Part shown: positions 44,751 through 51,747 of the stretch, one piece after another
Layout: each line of letters opens with the position of its first letter
Position numbering within the stretch: the stretch's first letter is position 1
Assembly (NCBI RefSeq): GCF_002776575.1
Contig: NZ_CP022548.1
Location: forward strand, 2,061,001 to 2,125,000
Direction of reading: 5' to 3'
Length of the DNA stretch: 64,000 bases
From: Sphingorhabdus sp. YGSMI21
GTDB lineage: Bacteria > Pseudomonadota > Alphaproteobacteria > Sphingomonadales > Sphingomonadaceae
Position numbers and translations under genes: made by a program
The notes under the pieces: generated by a model
Told to the model about the DNA's origin: nothing
Seen by the model: only the letters and a program-made list of their open reading frames with translations
Databases searched by the model: none

Positions 44751-44911
44751 GAGACTATCCCCATCCTTTGTCATTGATTGAATCGCCGGCGATTCGTGCG
44801 TGCTTCACCCCCCGCATCGCGCCTGCACGGGAGTTGCCGTCCGATCTTCGATGCAGGCCTGTTCGAAGCTTGGAAAGCCGCTTCCCAAGGCCGCAAGGAT
44901 AAATATTACAG

Positions 44912-44955
44912 TTTTGTTGCAGTTATATTGCATTTCTTGTCACATAAGTGTAACA
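44912..44955. promoter_or_regulatory. PhoB-box-like repeats before the TPR gene
   Basis: TTGTCAC-ATAA-GTGTAAC (44937-44954) is two half-sites repeated every 11 bp, the spacing of a PhoB box. Two weaker units in the same 11-bp phase precede it (TGTTGCA at 44915 and TATTGCA at 44926). The box ends 29 bp before the TPR ATG. Factor identity is inferred. Confidence 0.5.
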
Positions 44956-44983
44956 AAGGTCTTCAGGTAGAGGAGAAGACATC

Positions 44984-45364
44984 ATGATATCCGCAAAAAT
45001 TCTGGGTTCCGCCGCCGCTGCGTTTTTGATGGGAAACGCCGCTTCAGCCCAGCCCGCCGGCGAGATCGGTTACGAAACAGGCGCGCTCGGTTATGATGCG
45101 CTGGTTGCCGGAGATAACGCGCTGGCCTTGCAGCAGCTGGAAGCGTCCGAGCGGGAGCATGCAAAGGACCCCGCCCGACTGATCAATCTGGGCCAGACTT
45201 ATGCCCGGCTGGGACGCACGGGCGATGCCGCGCGCATGTTCATGGCGGCCAGAGACAGCAGTCGCAATTTTGATCTGGTGCTGGCCAATGGCGATGTGAT
45301 CAATTCCCGGGATGCCGCTGAACTGGCCCTGCGGAATCTCAACGAGCAGATCGCGCGCCGATAG
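44984..45364 (+). CDS. Exported tetratricopeptide protein
   Basis: 126 residues from an ATG with a strong ribosome site (AGGAG, 8 bases upstream). A signal peptide (AKILGSAAAAFLMGNAASAQP) precedes a short TPR-type helical array: 'LGYDALVAGDNALALQQLEASEREHAKDPARLINLGQTYARLGRTGDAARMFMAARD'. It is probably periplasmic and may be a small assembly or binding partner of the receptor complex downstream. It precedes a terminator, so it is a separate unit from the lipoprotein, though both leaders carry similar 11-bp repeats. Confidence 0.8.
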   Translation: MISAKILGSAAAAFLMGNAASAQPAGEIGYETGALGYDALVAGDNALALQQLEASEREHAKDPARLINLGQTYARLGRTGDAARMFMAARDSSRNFDLVLANGDVINSRDAAELALRNLNEQIARR

Positions 45365-45412
45365 ACGCCAACAGTTTCGGGGAACCACTCCCGCAGTCTT
45401 TATATTTTGAAA

Positions 45413-45441
45413 GGTGGCCGTCTTTGCGGCCATCTTTTTTT
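45413..45441 (+). terminator. Rho-independent terminator after the TPR gene
   Basis: GGTGGCCG-tctttg-CGGCCATC forms an 8-bp stem (one G-T pair) directly followed by seven Ts, 49 bp after the TPR stop. Confidence 0.85.
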
Positions 45442-45678
45442 CTGCATAATTGGCAAAGCGCATGCATGTGATCTTCCCGGTAAGCGGTTCAAATCCGCTG
45501 GACCGGGGGCGCTGAAAAATATCCGTCACAATTGAGTCTCCGAACCGTCACGCAAACAGCATCGGCGGGTCATTTCCTGTCCCTAGTGCCCTTTCCCGAG
45601 GGCGATGGGGGCCGGTTGATTCGAACCGCATCGTTTGATTCGAAAGTATCAAATCAGTTTTTTGCGGAGACCAATCCC
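45442..45678. other. Leader of the lipoprotein gene with tRNA-like arm and repeats
   Basis: No gene is supported. AGCGG-TTCAAAT-CCGCT (45483-45499) looks like a tRNA T-arm but no acceptor stem pairs with it. 45523-45551 holds the 11-bp PhoB-like repeats. TTGATTCGAA occurs twice (45616 and 45635), the second inside the dyad TTTGAT-n8-ATCAAA (45634-45653), 26 bp before the lipoprotein start. Confidence 0.45.
45523..45551. promoter_or_regulatory. PhoB-box-like repeats before the lipoprotein gene
   Basis: CCGTCAC-AATT-GAGTCTC-CGAA-CCGTCAC: three seven-base half-sites separated by four bases, giving an 11-bp period; the outer two are identical, the middle one degenerate. It lies about 128 bp before the lipoprotein start. 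No good -10 follows at the usual distance. Confidence 0.4.
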
Positions 45679-47208
45679 ATGTTGAATAAGCAATTTCGTT
45701 CTGTCCTGTTTGCAGGTGCAGCAGCTGTCGCGGTAACAGCTTGCGGTGCCGACGACGTAGCGTCACCGGGCGAAGGCAATATCGTCGTGCTGCCCGCACC
45801 GGCTCCGACACCGACTCCGACCCCCACGCCGACACCGACTCCGGGAACGCCGGCGGCCGATTGCCCGACGGGCTTCACCAATGCCGGTGTTCTGGCGAAC
45901 AACCGGGTCTGCCAGATACCAAACAGCATCCAGACGGCCCTGACAGTCCCGCAACGTGACGGTACCATCTATTCGATGAGCGGTCGGGTAGAGGTCGGCA
46001 CCGACGTTGGCGGCGATGGCGCAGCGGCCGGCGGCGTGTCCAGCAGCCTCACCGTTGAGCCCGGGGTAGTGGTCTTTGCCCAGAGCGCGACGACCTTCCT
46101 GATCGTCAACCGCGGATCGACCTTTAACGCTCCGGGTACCGCAAGCGAACCGGTGATTTTTACCTCGCGCCAGAATATCGAAGGCACGACCACCGATGCT
46201 GACTCGAACCAGTGGGGCGGAATTCTGGTTCTCGGTCGCGCGCCGATCAGTAACTGCATCGGCGCTGTTGCCGGCGGCACTGCCGGATGTCAGCAACTGG
46301 CAGAGGGTGCAGGCCCGTCCGATTTCTACGGCGGAGACCAAGCGGCCGACAATAGCGGCACTATCAGTTACCTGCAGGTTCGTTATACCGGTCGGGCTGC
46401 ATCGGCCAACCAGGAACTTCAGGGCCTGACCTTGGGTGGCGTTGGTTCGGGTACCGATATCTCCTACGTCCAGATCCACAATAGCGGTGATGACGGTGTC
46501 GAAATCTTTGGTGGCACGGTCAATCTGGACCACCTGATTATCACCGGTGCGGACGATGACTCGCTAGACACCGATGTCGGCTACAAGGGGGCCATCCAGT
46601 TTGTTATCGGCGTTCAGAACACCACCGGTGGCGACACATTGTGGGAAGTTGACTCCGATGATGACAGCGGCTTCGATTTCACCCCGCGTCAGGATGTCAA
46701 GCTGGCCAATTTCACCTTCATCCAACGCAAGACAGGCGACAAGGTCATTCACCTTCGTGGCGGACCGGATGCAGCGATCCTTAACGGCATTCTGGTCGGA
46801 CCGGGAACCTGCCTGGATATCGATCAGGCCGAAACGGTTCAGGCAGCCAATGCCGCGCTTGACGAGCTCGGCCCCCCACGGATCCAGTCAGTGGTTGGCA
46901 GCTGTGCCACGGGCGACTTTGATGCGGATGCCGATACGTTTGAAGCCACTGCGGTGAATGCTGCGGGCAATGCGAATAACGACTTCAACTTCGTATCCAG
47001 CCTGATTTCCCTGTTCATCAATGGCTCGAACGAAACGGGAGTGACTCCGGTCGCGAATATCACGAGCTTCAGCCCGGACTTCTTGCAGGTAGATTATATC
47101 GGTGCCGTCCGCGACATCAACGATCTCTGGTACCAGAGCTGGTCTTGCAACGCGAGCTACGCCGATTTCGGTTCTCTCCAGACTTGCGCAGCTTCGCCAG
47201 TCTCCTGA
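45679..47208 (+). CDS. Surface lipoprotein with Pro-Thr linker, partner of TonB receptor
   Basis: 509 residues from the ATG at 45679 (the frame is open for 49 more codons upstream but those read as leader). A lipoprotein signal (FRSVLFAGAAAVAVTAC) with lipobox VTAC gives Cys22 as lipid anchor. A (Pro-Thr)n linker at about 40-54 spaces a large C-terminal domain of repeated beta strands ('SSSLTVEPGVVVFAQSATTFLIVNRG', 'GLTLGGVGSGTDISYVQIHNSGDDGVEIFGGTV', 'LIITGADDDSLDTDVGYKG'), which looks like a right-handed beta helix with Asp-rich loops, so calcium binding is possible. Such proteins are regularly found just before a TonB receptor; a substrate-capture role on the surface is inferred. Confidence 0.75.
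   Translation: MLNKQFRSVLFAGAAAVAVTACGADDVASPGEGNIVVLPAPAPTPTPTPTPTPTPGTPAADCPTGFTNAGVLANNRVCQIPNSIQTALTVPQRDGTIYSMSGRVEVGTDVGGDGAAAGGVSSSLTVEPGVVVFAQSATTFLIVNRGSTFNAPGTASEPVIFTSRQNIEGTTTDADSNQWGGILVLGRAPISNCIGAVAGGTAGCQQLAEGAGPSDFYGGDQAADNSGTISYLQVRYTGRAASANQELQGLTLGGVGSGTDISYVQIHNSGDDGVEIFGGTVNLDHLIITGADDDSLDTDVGYKGAIQFVIGVQNTTGGDTLWEVDSDDDSGFDFTPRQDVKLANFTFIQRKTGDKVIHLRGGPDAAILNGILVGPGTCLDIDQAETVQAANAALDELGPPRIQSVVGSCATGDFDADADTFEATAVNAAGNANNDFNFVSSLISLFINGSNETGVTPVANITSFSPDFLQVDYIGAVRDINDLWYQSWSCNASYADFGSLQTCAASPVS
45800..45843 (+). repeat. In-frame hexanucleotide-like repeat coding the Pro-Thr linker
   Basis: About seven imperfect CCGACn CC units (CCGACACCGACTCCGACCCC...) encode the alternating Pro-Thr linker of the lipoprotein. 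Because units are six bases, slippage would change linker length without changing frame. Confidence 0.7.
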
Positions 47209-47225
47209 TCGCTACAGCCAGTTCA

Positions 47226-47263
47226 GGAGGTGGCGGCCCGTGTCGCCACCTCCCTTTCTTTTT
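47226..47263 (+). terminator. Strong terminator between lipoprotein and receptor genes
   Basis: GGAGGTGGCG (47226-47235) pairs perfectly with CGCCACCTCC (47244-47253), an 8-base loop between, followed by CTTTCTTTTT. It lies 17 bp after the lipoprotein stop and 16 bp before the receptor ATG, so it separates their expression levels. Confidence 0.9.
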
Positions 47264-47279
47264 ATCCGAGGGATCATCA

Positions 47280-50006
47280 ATGTCGAAACCTGCCCCACTC
47301 GCGAGCATACTCCTTTTTTCCACAGCACTCAGCCCTCTGCCGGCTTTGGCGCAAGCGAGCCCGGCTGAAGTCGTTGAGCCTTCTGAAGCTGAACCAGCTG
47401 AAGAAACGCAATCCGGCGATGATGTCGACATTTCTGCTCCTGGCGGCGGCTTCAGTGGCGAGATTATCGTTCGCGGCCGCTATATCCCCAATTCCATACG
47501 CAATAATTCGAGCGTGATTTCCGTCCTTTCGACAGAAGATATTGCCCGATCGGGCGATGGCGATATTGCCGGTGCTCTGGAACGGGTCACCGGGCTTTCG
47601 GTTGATAGTGGCGGTTTTGTCTATGTTCGTGGTCTCGGCGACCGTTATTCGCAGGCTTTGCTGAACGGCACGCTTATCCCCTCGCCGGAGCCGCTAAAGC
47701 GGGTTGTACCGCTTGATATTTTTCCTGCCTCGGTGCTTGCCAGTGCCACGGTGCAGAAGAGCTATTCGGTAAATTATCCCGGTGAATTTGGCGGCGGTCT
47801 AATCAATCTGACGACGGCTGCCATTCCCGATGAAAGCTATTTCGAATTCGGAATGGGCATGGGCATGAATAGCGAAACAACCGGGAAGCTTGGCTATACC
47901 CATTTCGGCAGCGACAGTGACTGGACCGGTTTTGACGACGGTACCCGCGACGTGCCGGCCGGACTGGCTGCAGCATTTAACGCCGGGTCCCGGATCGAAC
48001 TGGGTCCTGATTTCACCCAGGAGCAATTGCAGGATTTTACCGCCAGCCTGGTTAACGCGCCGACCACATTGGTTCAGCGCAATAACGATATTCCGGTCAA
48101 CTGGAGCGCCGATATGAGCGCTGGTCTGGCCAAGGATATTGGCGCCAGCCGTCTTGGCGTGATCTTCAATGCCTCGTACAGCAACAAGTTCTTCACCCGC
48201 GATTCCATTGAACAGGGGGGCACCACCAGCATCATTGCCGATGACGGTCGCAACGTGCGTACCGATCACAATATCGTGGTTAGCGGACTTCTCGGCCTGG
48301 GTCTTGAGGTGGACGAGCATGTAATCCGCTGGACCAATCTCTACATTCGGGATTCTCTGAAACAGACAAGCCTCAAAGCCGCGGACAATATCAATACCGG
48401 CGAAATCGACCCCACCACGCCGGCGGATGAAATGCGTCAGCAGACCAACTGGATCGAACGTCAGTTGATAGACACAGTTCTGGTTGGCGAATTCAAATTC
48501 GGCGATATATCGCTTGATGTTCGCGGTGGTTACGCGAATTCGCAGCGCGAAGCTCCCTATGAGCGCTCCTTTACCTATTTCTATGACCCGGTTGCCGAGG
48601 ATTATGTAAATAACCTGCTGACCAACCCGCAGTCGGCCACCATCGCATTCAGCGATCTGAACGAAGATGTGTGGAATGGTGGTATAGACTTTGCCTATGC
48701 TCTGCCAACTTCGCGCAACATAACTTTGTCGACCGGCTACAGCTATGTGAACACCAGCCGGAACGCATCCCGACGCGACTTCCGTTACTTCCCGACCAGC
48801 AGCCTGCCGTTCGGGGTGAGCCAGGAGCGCCCAGATTATCTCATCTCCGACTTCAATGTCTACGGCGGCTACACAGAAGGCATTACAACCGACGGTATTT
48901 TCATTCAGGAAGACCAGACCAATGCAGGATCTCAGGCCTATGATGCAGAGCTGACTGTTCACGGCGCCTATGTCAAAGCGGATGTGGAACTGCTTGACTT
49001 CGTTCAGGCCGAATTGGGTGTCCGCTATGAAACGGCTGATCAGTCGATAACCGCGCTGGATATCTACAATGACGGCACGCTGGTGCAGACAGCGCCGCTC
49101 GAAAATGACTATTGGCTGCCTGCCGGCACGCTGACGTGGAATTTTGCGGAGGATATGCAATTCCGTGCAAGTGCTTCGAAAACCATCGCTCGTCCGCAAT
49201 TTCGCGAACTGGCCCGGCCGCAATATCTCGACCCGGACTCCGGCCGGGTATTCTCGGGCAACCCCTTTCTCGAAGATAGCGAACTGTTCAACGCCGAAGC
49301 CCGTCTAGAATATTATTTTGGCGATGGAGAACGTGTCCTGCTGGCCGGCTTCTACAAGAAGATCGACAATCCGATCGAACCCGTTGCATTCATTCCTGCC
49401 GGCAGTTCGGATTTCCAGACCACCTTTGCCAACGCTCCGGAAGCCCAGCTATATGGTGCGGAAATCGAGCTGCTGAAATATTTCCCTATGGATGGGCTGG
49501 GGAATTCAGATTTTTTTGCGGATAGAAGGTTCGTTGCGATTGCCAACTATACCTATACCGACTCCGAGCTGAAAGTGGGCGCCAATGATACGACCATCCT
49601 GGACGATACGCTGGGCGTGCGTTCGGCCGATCAGGTGTTCATTGACGGTTCGCCTTTGACTGGACAATCGAAACATCTGGCAAATTTTCAATTCGGTATC
49701 GAAAATACCGAACGGCTTTCTCAATATACGTTCCTGCTCAGCTATGCGAGTGACCGGGTCACGACGCGCGGCCCGATCACGGGCGGCCAGCCCGATCCGG
49801 ATCTGGTGCAGGACGCAAGCCTGAAGCTGGATTTTGTTGCGAGAGAAGCGGTCAGCATTGCCGGTCAGGAACTGGAAATTAAGTTTGAAGCCCGCAATCT
49901 GACCAACGAGAATTTCCGGGAAACCCAGTCGGGCAATGTTCTGATCATCAACCAGCAATATGATCTCGGCCGTAGTTTCTCCATCGGGGTCAAGGCGAAA
50001 TTCTGA
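47280..50006 (+). CDS. TonB-dependent outer-membrane receptor
   Basis: 908 residues from the ATG at 47280, which opens the signal peptide (SKPAPLASILLFSTALSPLPALAQ). The plug domain starts 'FSGEIIVRGRYIPNSIRNNSSVISVLSTEDIARSGDGDIAGALERVTGLSVDSGGFVYVRGLGDRYSQALLNG', followed by a 22-strand-type barrel ending in Phe ('FSIGVKAKF'), the outer-membrane insertion signature. An acidic N-terminal stretch (EVVEPSEAEPAEETQ) precedes the plug. No STN (sigma-signalling) domain. It should import a substrate presented by the preceding lipoprotein, using TonB-ExbB-ExbD. The substrate is unknown; the promoter features suggest phosphate-related material. Confidence 0.9.
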   Translation: MSKPAPLASILLFSTALSPLPALAQASPAEVVEPSEAEPAEETQSGDDVDISAPGGGFSGEIIVRGRYIPNSIRNNSSVISVLSTEDIARSGDGDIAGALERVTGLSVDSGGFVYVRGLGDRYSQALLNGTLIPSPEPLKRVVPLDIFPASVLASATVQKSYSVNYPGEFGGGLINLTTAAIPDESYFEFGMGMGMNSETTGKLGYTHFGSDSDWTGFDDGTRDVPAGLAAAFNAGSRIELGPDFTQEQLQDFTASLVNAPTTLVQRNNDIPVNWSADMSAGLAKDIGASRLGVIFNASYSNKFFTRDSIEQGGTTSIIADDGRNVRTDHNIVVSGLLGLGLEVDEHVIRWTNLYIRDSLKQTSLKAADNINTGEIDPTTPADEMRQQTNWIERQLIDTVLVGEFKFGDISLDVRGGYANSQREAPYERSFTYFYDPVAEDYVNNLLTNPQSATIAFSDLNEDVWNGGIDFAYALPTSRNITLSTGYSYVNTSRNASRRDFRYFPTSSLPFGVSQERPDYLISDFNVYGGYTEGITTDGIFIQEDQTNAGSQAYDAELTVHGAYVKADVELLDFVQAELGVRYETADQSITALDIYNDGTLVQTAPLENDYWLPAGTLTWNFAEDMQFRASASKTIARPQFRELARPQYLDPDSGRVFSGNPFLEDSELFNAEARLEYYFGDGERVLLAGFYKKIDNPIEPVAFIPAGSSDFQTTFANAPEAQLYGAEIELLKYFPMDGLGNSDFFADRRFVAIANYTYTDSELKVGANDTTILDDTLGVRSADQVFIDGSPLTGQSKHLANFQFGIENTERLSQYTFLLSYASDRVTTRGPITGGQPDPDLVQDASLKLDFVAREAVSIAGQELEIKFEARNLTNENFRETQSGNVLIINQQYDLGRSFSIGVKAKF

Positions 50007-50018
50007 ACCCCTGCGCGA

Positions 50019-50058
50019 GCGTAACCTATCTGTCACCTAAGTGTCGCGGAGGCGTCAC
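50019..50058. promoter_or_regulatory. PhoB-box-like repeats before gspE
   Basis: GCGTAAC-CTAT-CTGTCAC-CTAA-GTGTCGC-GGAG-GCGTCAC: four seven-base half-sites with four-base gaps, an exact 11-bp period. CTGTCAC/GTGTCGC is close to the canonical PhoB CTGTCAT repeat. It lies 132 bp before the gspE start and 12 bp after the receptor stop. Confidence 0.55.
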
Positions 50059-50190
50059 CATAGCGATCTAGCCAGTGTAATGGGCAAGACAGGACAGGGA
50101 CGTCGTGATAACCGGATTTCTGACAACAGACTGCAAGAATAGGGTCGGATCGGCCGGGCAGGCCGTCCGATCCAATGACGGGTTGCTGCC

Positions 50191-51747
50191 ATGAACATGC
50201 CCGCTCCGGTCGAAAAATCACCCGGCGGGAACATATCCCGGCCCATTTCTGACAGCGAAGCGCCGCTGCTCGACCTTCCCTACAGCTATGCCCGCGATCA
50301 GGGTGTTATAATCTGTTCGATGGAGGACGAGCGGGCAACGATAGCAATGCGCGAGGGTGCGGACCCGTCCGCCTTGTTGGAAGTGCGGCGCTATCTGGCT
50401 CTGCCCTTTGATGTGGAACTGGTCGATGGTCCGGCGTTCGAGAAGCTGCTCAGCGCCCATTATGCGATGGACGGATCGGCTGCCGCCATGGCGGGCGATA
50501 TGGCGCTGGCGGGCGGGGGGCTGGACGATATTGCGGGGGATATTCCGAGCGCCGAGGATTTGCTCGACAGCGCCGATGATGCGCCGACGATCCGGCTGAT
50601 TAACGGGATCATTGCCGAAGCGGCAAGGCAGGGCGCTTCTGATATCCATATAGAACCCTATGAGACGGGTCTGGTCGTGCGGATGCGGGTCGACGGCGTG
50701 CTGACCGAGAAACTGCGCATGCCGCCGCATGTCGCCGGCGTGATCGTTAACCGGATCAAGGTAATGGCACGGCTCGATATTGCCGAAAGAAGAATTCCGC
50801 AGGATGGCCGGATCAGCCTGACGCTGGGCGGGAAATTGCTCGACGTGCGCGTTTCGACCTTGCCCAACCGGGCGAGCGAGCGGGTGGTGATGCGGATTCT
50901 CGACAAGGAAAGCGCGGGTATCTCGCTCGACCTGCTGGGCATGTCGCCCAATACCCATGCGATCCTGACCGATGCGCTCAGCGAACCCAATGGTATCATA
51001 TTGGTCACCGGCCCCACCGGCTCGGGCAAGACCACAACGCTTTACGCCGGGCTCAAGCAGCTCAATGACGGCAGCCGCAATATCCTGACCGTCGAGGACC
51101 CGGTGGAATATGCGATCGAGGGGATCGGCCAGACGCAAGTCAATGCAAAGGTCGGGCTGACCTTTGCTGCAGGATTGAGGGCGATCCTGAGGCAGGACCC
51201 GGATGTCGTGATGATCGGGGAGATCAGAGATAGAGAGACGGCAGAGATTGCAGTGCAGGCGAGTCTTACCGGTCATCTCGTCCTCTCGACCGTTCACACC
51301 AACGATGCGGTTGGCGCGATCACCAGAATGCGCGACATGAAGGTGGAGCCGTTTCTGCTCGCCTCGACCCTGCGCGCGGTCATTGCCCAGCGTCTGGTTA
51401 GAAAACTCTGCGAACATTGCCGCACGCCGATCCAGGCGGACGGCTCGCTGGCTTCGCTGCTCGGTTTTGATAATGGCACGGTGGTCTATCGCGAGACCGG
51501 CTGCGACCATTGCAACCAGACCGGCTTTCAGGGCCGGATCGGCGTGTTCGAGGCGATCCGGATTGACGACACGCTGCGCAAGCTGATCAACGACGGTGGC
51601 GACGAGGCGCGCATTGCATCGCATGCATTTCTCAAACAGCCCAATCTCGGCTCCGCGGCCCGGGCGCTCGTCCGCGAAGGCCTAACCACTGCCGAAGAAG
51701 GAATCCGGATTTCCCGCCGCGAAAGCGAGACGATATTGATTGGATGA
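50191..51747 (+). CDS. gspE: Type II secretion ATPase GspE (isolated)
   Basis: 518 residues. An N1E-like N-terminal domain (about 25-125) leads into the GspE/PulE core: 'RLINGIIAEAARQGASDIHIEPYETG', Walker A GPTGSGKTTTL, the Asp box 'TVEDPVEY', Walker B/His box 'LRQDPDVVMIGEIRD' and 'LTGHLVLSTVHTNDA', then the zinc site CEHC...CDHC and the C-terminal 'GRIGVFEAI'. It powers the type II pseudopilus from the cytoplasm. No gspC-N genes lie beside it: the next gene is kynA-like. It follows the TonB receptor and carries its own PhoB-like box. Confidence 0.92.
   Translation: MNMPAPVEKSPGGNISRPISDSEAPLLDLPYSYARDQGVIICSMEDERATIAMREGADPSALLEVRRYLALPFDVELVDGPAFEKLLSAHYAMDGSAAAMAGDMALAGGGLDDIAGDIPSAEDLLDSADDAPTIRLINGIIAEAARQGASDIHIEPYETGLVVRMRVDGVLTEKLRMPPHVAGVIVNRIKVMARLDIAERRIPQDGRISLTLGGKLLDVRVSTLPNRASERVVMRILDKESAGISLDLLGMSPNTHAILTDALSEPNGIILVTGPTGSGKTTTLYAGLKQLNDGSRNILTVEDPVEYAIEGIGQTQVNAKVGLTFAAGLRAILRQDPDVVMIGEIRDRETAEIAVQASLTGHLVLSTVHTNDAVGAITRMRDMKVEPFLLASTLRAVIAQRLVRKLCEHCRTPIQADGSLASLLGFDNGTVVYRETGCDHCNQTGFQGRIGVFEAIRIDDTLRKLINDGGDEARIASHAFLKQPNLGSAARALVREGLTTAEEGIRISRRESETILIG

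Follow-up and report, generated by a model that had tools for sequence, protein, structure and literature searches.

The window considered here is the whole stretch of 64,000 nucleotides of DNA that was analysed (G000:C1:2061001-2125000), taken from a genome (G000) whose host is a sphingomonad, as judged by its relatives. It contains a block of four genes in the order tetratricopeptide repeat (TPR)-like protein, surface lipoprotein (LP), TonB-dependent receptor (TBDR) and gspE, the last encoding an ATPase of the type II secretion system (T2SS) and followed by a gene for tryptophan 2,3-dioxygenase (Table 1). Directly downstream of the TBDR gene there is gspE alone, not a T2SS operon. Three of the four gene leaders carry seven-base half-sites spaced at 11 base pairs (bp), and the block very probably represents the central part of a phosphate-starvation unit under PhoB control, of the type formed in Caulobacter by the lipoprotein ElpS, a TBDR and the T2SS.

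Table 1. Genes and predicted PhoB-box arrays of the block (positions in the window)
Feature	Position	Strand	Details
Three-unit PhoB-box array, TPR leader	44905..44933	-	CTGTAAT/CTGCAAC/ATGCAAT every 11 bp; best dimer 18.8 bits
PhoB-box dimer, TPR leader	44937..44954	+	TTGTCACataaGTGTAAC, 23.9 bits, best in window
Small exported TPR-like protein, 126 amino acids	44984..45364	+	signal peptide judged by eye
Five-unit 11-bp array, LP leader	45523..45573	+	CCGTCAC/GAGTCTC/CCGTCAC at 45523, 45534, 45545; last two in-phase units weak
Surface lipoprotein (LP), 509 amino acids, ElpS-type	45679..47208	+	lipobox Cys22
TonB-dependent receptor (TBDR), 908 amino acids	47280..50006	+	PF00593 + PF07715
Four-unit PhoB-box array, gspE leader	50019..50058	+	GCGTAAC, CTGTCAC, GTGTCGC, GCGTCAC at 50019, 50030, 50041, 50052
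Solitary second GspE, 518 amino acids, type II secretion ATPase	50191..51747	+	TIGR02533 641.6 bits (cut-off 630.25)

Candidate PhoB sites were scored with an 18-bp matrix, derived by iteration starting with a Pho-box seed. It was built on the 30 top-scoring pstS loci in a family search that matched pstS in 137 of 149 family genomes. Every one of the 30 leaders yielded a site of 15.9-26.3 bits, a range that is partly circular in that the best site was picked in each leader. For the window itself the host's own genus was held out, and the matrix then rested on 28 pstS leaders of other genera. Among 127,966 window positions the three highest ranks fell to the TPR and gspE leaders (44937 on the plus strand with 23.9 bits, 44905 on the minus strand with 18.8 and 50030 on the plus strand with 16.4), the next-best site in any other leader of the window reaching 12.2 bits. 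When the columns of the matrix were permuted 200 times, no permuted matrix did as well at the TPR dimer and one reached the score of the gspE dimer.

Tandem arrays were modelled as single half-sites at 11 bp and scored in groups of three and four against 383,886 three-unit and 382,830 four-unit positions of the host's own genome, a background that includes stretches chosen by a loose-pattern match. With three units (21.6 bits) as with four, the gspE array ranks first in the window and is equalled by no background position. The minus-strand array of the TPR leader scores 17.9 bits, which one background position equals. The LP leader reaches 14.4 bits and fourth place among 127,944 window positions, where the first two places go to overlapping positions within the gspE array; one background position is as good. 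A preliminary description of this DNA had seen 11-bp repeats with PhoB-box spacing in all three leaders. The gspE leader indeed holds four exact units and the LP leader three with two weak ones, but the upstream half of the TPR leader is out of phase on the plus strand and forms a minus-strand array instead. Likewise, the expectation that the repeats would stand out from background and from shuffling was borne out for the TPR and gspE leaders; the LP leader stands out from background when it is read as a three-unit array.

Consensus patterns told two different stories. A loose pattern (STGTMACN4STGTMAC, up to 2 mismatches) matched the genome 53+53 times, against 106+117 for its reversed control, and was dropped as evidence because it is rarer than that control. 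The strict pattern BTGTMAYN4BTGTMAY has five genome matches (control 0+1): two fall within the promoter of pstS, a third in the leader of the TPR gene and the other two elsewhere. The host's own pstS (L075:9662-10705) has a triple array, CTGTCACataaTTGTAATataaCTGTAAC, upstream, and lies in one stretch of the genome together with pstC, PhoB (L075:4652-5353; TIGR02154 349.2 bits, cut-off 296.2) and a PhoR-like kinase (L075:10888-12282), whose best family is TIGR02966 at 297.6 bits, under the cut-off of 334.2. A second PstS, 74% identical to that of the pst operon, is encoded at G000:C1:2860950-2861966.

The boxes recur in relatives, as the preliminary description had required of a functional array. 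LP homologues were found at E<=0.001 in 112 of 149 family genomes, short N-terminal matches included, and leaders were compared in two sets: 39 family loci, mostly from the best-scoring, with neighbours located by tblastn, and the best 80 of 540 confirmed relatives, 75 of them with sufficient leader. A box of at least 12 bits occurs in the 350-bp LP leader of 31 of the 39 loci, as compared with 3.3% of 2126 control tiles from the same loci, and in 48 of the 75, as compared with 2.4% of 6378 control tiles. Of 119 loci, 39 have a TPR homologue no more than 1.3 kb upstream of LP (nine on the same strand, 30 divergent), and in all 39 its leader carries a box; since divergent TPR genes share their leader with LP, the TPR and LP counts are not independent. 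Within the genus, all 13 relatives whose examined stretch includes a TPR gene have minus-strand boxes of 11-23 bits in its leader, and a 14-15-bit box is present in six of 13 LP leaders (L199, L200, L201, L202, L204, L208). The gspC or solitary gspE leader has a box in 17 of 20 cases, and none of 200 permuted matrices reached the counts of at least 12 bits observed for the 31/39 LP, 13/13 genus TPR or these 17/20 leaders. A box of at least 13 bits precedes all six solitary gspE copies. The gspE array moreover matches the gspC array of intact genus operons unit for unit, the host's own row being compared by eye, and in the host's own T2SS operon the array CTGTAATATATTCGTCAC (16.3 bits) stands before gspC.

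Gene neighbourhood points in the same direction. Among the best 80 of 540 relatives, 79 loci show a TBDR match after LP, and both gspC and gspD lie beside the pair in 28, counted by eye; a broader figure of 39/80 for a T2SS gene within the locus was set aside because it takes in distant ATPases. In the family set both genes accompany LP and TBDR in 12 of 39 loci, in two of them upstream and divergent. Phosphate genes occur within 10 kb of LP in several lineages, namely pstS in L097, pstS and pstC in L224, and phoB with pst genes in L273 and L255, and a PhoB of 67-73% identity lies within the same distance in L093, L094, L108, L227 and L257; over all these loci together PhoB identity spans 64-73%. 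By coordinates, G059 and G131 also have a PstS match about 3 kb or less from LP. Within the genus, 32 genomes were searched and stretches of 17 besides the host's own were examined: the order TPR-LP-TBDR-gspC-D-E-F-G is intact in nine (G149, G152, G164, G165, G170, G171, G172, G176, G177), and a solitary gspE follows the TBDR gene in five (G089, G154, G157, G158, G166).

The LP lipoprotein signal includes a Cys22 that is invariant in 40/40 aligned sequences, and the predicted structure is a beta-helix (pLDDT 88.8). A Pfam search matched no family in LP, a sequence search among solved structures gave nothing convincing (best E 0.31), and Foldseek returned nothing at E<=0.001; the VIA matches of the model support a beta-helix and no more. 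No solved relative of the TBDR was found by sequence at E<=0.001. The TPR-like protein matches TPR_16 with an E of 0.0027, under the Pfam cut-off. GspE retains Walker A at 274, Walker B at 340 and CxxC at 407 and 438.

A system of this kind is known. In Caulobacter crescentus, according to the available part of the report, ElpS (cc0170) and a TBDR (cc0171) are encoded directly upstream of gspC-N, production and secretion of ElpS rise specifically at phosphate starvation, and a similar gene arrangement is noted for Sphingomonas alaskensis, among other species (PMC2996285). The Caulobacter PhoB regulon includes the T2SS and various TBDRs, as stated in the portion available of PMC11208175. Low phosphate also induces the lipoproteins FI and FII that accompany TonB-dependent transporters in the Flavobacterium clusters PUS III/IV, one of which contains phoBR; these lipoproteins are 31-36% identical to the Caulobacter lipoprotein and have a polygalacturonase-like model, again by the accessible part of the source (PMC8115612). 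The block shares with Caulobacter the order lipoprotein, TBDR, T2SS, seen in intact relatives, and phosphate-starvation control, here predicted from the arrays; it differs in that the T2SS operon lies about 88 kb off, a solitary boxed gspE stands by the TBDR gene and there is a TPR gene with a Pho box upstream of LP. LP is a putative counterpart of ElpS (CC_0170), and the LP homologues of Brevundimonas (L252, L260, L287) stand in the same LP-TBDR-gspCDEFG order. Flavobacterium likewise combines a low-phosphate lipoprotein with a TonB-dependent transporter in one cluster, but it belongs to another phylum, is likened to LP by description, and the clusters as described in the part available have no T2SS genes. 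The boxes themselves resemble those of the 30 pstS leaders in having 7-bp half-sites 11 bp apart, and depart from them in the four units of the gspE leader and the up to five, two of them weak, of the LP leader.

Several observations weigh against a PhoB-controlled unit that includes LP and TBDR. The dimer in the host's own LP leader scores 5.8 bits, which is chance level and is matched by 17 of 200 permuted matrices, so that the claim of scores better than shuffled sequence fails for this dimer; that of its sister locus L090 scores 7.8 bits. Seven of the 13 genus LP leaders are without a box of at least 10 bits, and 27 of the 75 leaders from the best 80 of 540 relatives fall below 12 bits. 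Among these 27 are those of all three Brevundimonas with the intact cluster (1.4, 7.6 and 9.1 bits) and of a Caulobacteraceae metagenome-assembled genome (-0.8), despite the phosphate-regulated ElpS of Caulobacter; the sphingomonad matrix or the estimated start positions may fail in LP leaders of Caulobacteraceae. In three of the 17 genus stretches (G150, G151, G153) there is a T2SS without LP and TBDR in the stretch examined. Finally, cc0171 is reported as constitutive by RT-PCR in the available part of PMC2996285. The 71-bp TBDR leader of the window contains no box, scoring at best -2.9 on the plus strand, and TBDR expression would therefore need read-through from LP.

The gspE gene of the block is one of two in the genome, both giving full-length matches of about 470 bits. 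The other belongs to the host's own T2SS operon, gspC-D-E-F-G at G000:C1:2020-2026 kb, with its gspE at 2023 kb and about 88 kb from its counterpart in the window; one of two secretin matches lies in this operon and the second at 2436 kb. The copy in the window is outside any gsp operon, between the TBDR and tryptophan 2,3-dioxygenase genes. The preliminary description was thus right that a boxed secretion ATPase stands in the unit, but it is an extra copy, and the T2SS operon proper lies elsewhere behind a box of its own. The two copies lie 88-189 kb apart in G000, G089, G166 and G154 and on different contigs in G158. The first 240 bases are 62-69% identical between paralogues, as against 71-93% between like copies of different species. 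In the core, DNA identity between paralogues is 91.1% in the host, 98.5% in G089, 91.8% in G166, 91.4% in G154 and 87.0% in G158; like copies across species share 86.8-92.0%, mostly 87-89, with 91.8 and 92.0 for the pairs between the host and G166, so that the host's own core is no nearer to its paralogue than to G166. Synonymous distances between paralogues are 0.56 in the N-terminal part and 0.033 in the core in G089, and 0.97 and 0.41 in the host.

Trees, which leave out the partial solitary copy of G158, agree with this division. The ends set solitary copies (89.4/99) apart from operon copies (97.3/99), and in the core both copies pair in G089 (92.3/98) and G166 (87.8/91), not in the host or G154. 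We explain a core kept alike between distinct ends by gene conversion, for which the sequence evidence is strong in G089, moderate in the host, G166 and G154, and weak in G158. There is a lean towards the solitary gspE being the native copy and no more than a lean, because its grouping with the in-place gspE of intact relatives in the C-tail tree is weak (71.5/69), while in the ends tree solitary and operon copies come together (82.1/88). Short gspE pieces were also seen in G155, G156, G157, G160, G161, G162, G163 and G173; many start at contig base 1-3, as if assembly broke in a near-identical repeat, which suggests a duplicate gspE in further species. Shortened solitary GspE-like genes of 342-408 amino acids lie near LP and TBDR at L118:1063-2286, L219:15333-16358 and L272:15409-16527, perhaps also in L246. 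They keep two CxxC pairs, simple Walker A or B patterns found no match in them, and each is possibly a pseudo-ATPase or a decaying leftover. A search for such Walker-less genes returned matches in at least 148 of 298 family genomes, most of the listed ones being ordinary GspE by frame length; among the matches listed, that of G091 is the solitary gene known from L118, and short frames occur in G124, G153 and G271.

In the mechanism that we propose, PhoB would bind the tandem 11-bp half-sites at low phosphate and recruit RNA polymerase to three promoters, before the exported TPR protein, the LP-TBDR pair and gspE, with a fourth array serving the distant T2SS operon. LP would be a beta-helix lipoprotein at the outer surface that captures or helps to process a phosphate-bearing polymer, the TBDR would import the product, and the T2SS would export hydrolases and help to release LP. 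The joint role in uptake and secretion that the preliminary description had suggested matches the published picture for Caulobacter, with a qualification at the TBDR, which has no box of its own here and whose Caulobacter counterpart is reported as constitutive. In the host's own clade the T2SS operon lies at another site, and one gspE is found beside LP and TBDR under an array that aligns with that of gspC, and this solitary copy would most likely boost the supply of a shared secretion motor in starvation.

The alternatives differ widely in probability. That the 11-bp periodicity is a product of chance would accord with the rarity of the loose consensus relative to its reversed control and with the chance-level LP dimer, but it is contradicted by the matrix ranks, the tandem-array background, the strict-pattern matches, the permuted matrices and the conservation in relatives, and is scarcely credible. 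Binding of the arrays by a different OmpR-family regulator is a good deal less far-fetched than chance and still very improbable. The genome has nine further Trans_reg_C matches (10 in all), and regulator-like genes 32-42% identical to PhoB lie downstream of LP and TBDR in many erythrobacter-type relatives; yet the matrix was built on pstS leaders, the classic PhoB target, the host's own pstS promoter has a like array, and pst and phoB genes neighbour LP in several lineages. Because the matrix, conservation and neighbourhood evidence together fit it best, PhoB control of the arrays is the favoured and well supported prediction, as the preliminary description had proposed. Under PhoB control LP and TBDR might still serve carbohydrate use, with phosphate control secondary. 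The low sequence identity (7-14%), the empty Foldseek result, the conserved Pho boxes and the pst and phoB neighbours all speak against this, and we think it unlikely.

Rather more weight is due to the possibility, which we nevertheless do not favour, that the solitary gspE survives from the ancestral operon through chance and gene conversion, without a function of its own, and that its array is a remnant of the promoter of gspC. The gene is by itself at the site behind the TBDR gene that gspC occupies in nine relatives, the leaders of the two genes can be aligned, and the shortened genes of L118, L219 and L272 indicate that such remnants may decay. Against this, Walker A, Walker B and CxxC are intact in the solitary GspE, and solitary copy and array occur together in six genomes (the host's own, G089, G166, G154, G157 and G158). 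The dN/dS among solitary copies of four species is also low, at 0.03-0.04 in the core, a value common to the other copy too, 0.12-0.27 in the N-terminal part and up to 0.03 in the C-tail. The N-terminal part of GspE faces GspL in known T2SS. With the core probably kept alike by gene conversion and the N-terminal part and C-tail distinct, a motor encoded twice behind predicted PhoB arrays could allow starvation to supplement or replace one motor variant with another and so retune the same machine for LP and TBDR, an idea that we offer as speculative and rather doubtful.

Two further observations concern LP and TBDR. Past the array, the LP leader (45574-45678) is strongly conserved among genus relatives all the way to the start codon, and this part is possibly an untranslated-region element; at gathering thresholds the sole Rfam match was a tRNA-Cys, with none in 45574-45678. 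The LP and TBDR genes (45679-50006) of the host, G089 and G166 cluster with other genera (G087, G051; support 100). G154 and G157 have the same TPR and solitary gspE neighbours as the host and a genus-type LP-TBDR pair, 51-52% identical to that of the host, and GspD places the host with G154. These placements suggest that the LP-TBDR pair was exchanged in place.

Given the Caulobacter and Flavobacterium precedents, the phosphate-responsive lipoprotein-TBDR-T2SS system is of a known kind, and the solitary gspE and boxed TPR gene are its parts without a description in the literature searched, on second or orphan gspE and on PhoB, TBDR and T2SS in sphingomonads, with subscription journals mostly outside that search; the available part of PMC9123166 has no bearing on the solitary gspE arrangement. 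The arrays described here would extend PhoB control of a lipoprotein-TBDR-T2SS unit from Caulobacter to sphingomonads with evidence at the level of boxes, and would add a Pho-boxed TPR gene to it. The duplicated secretion motor, with its homogenised core and distinct ends, provides a natural test case of whether GspE copies are interchangeable or condition-specific.
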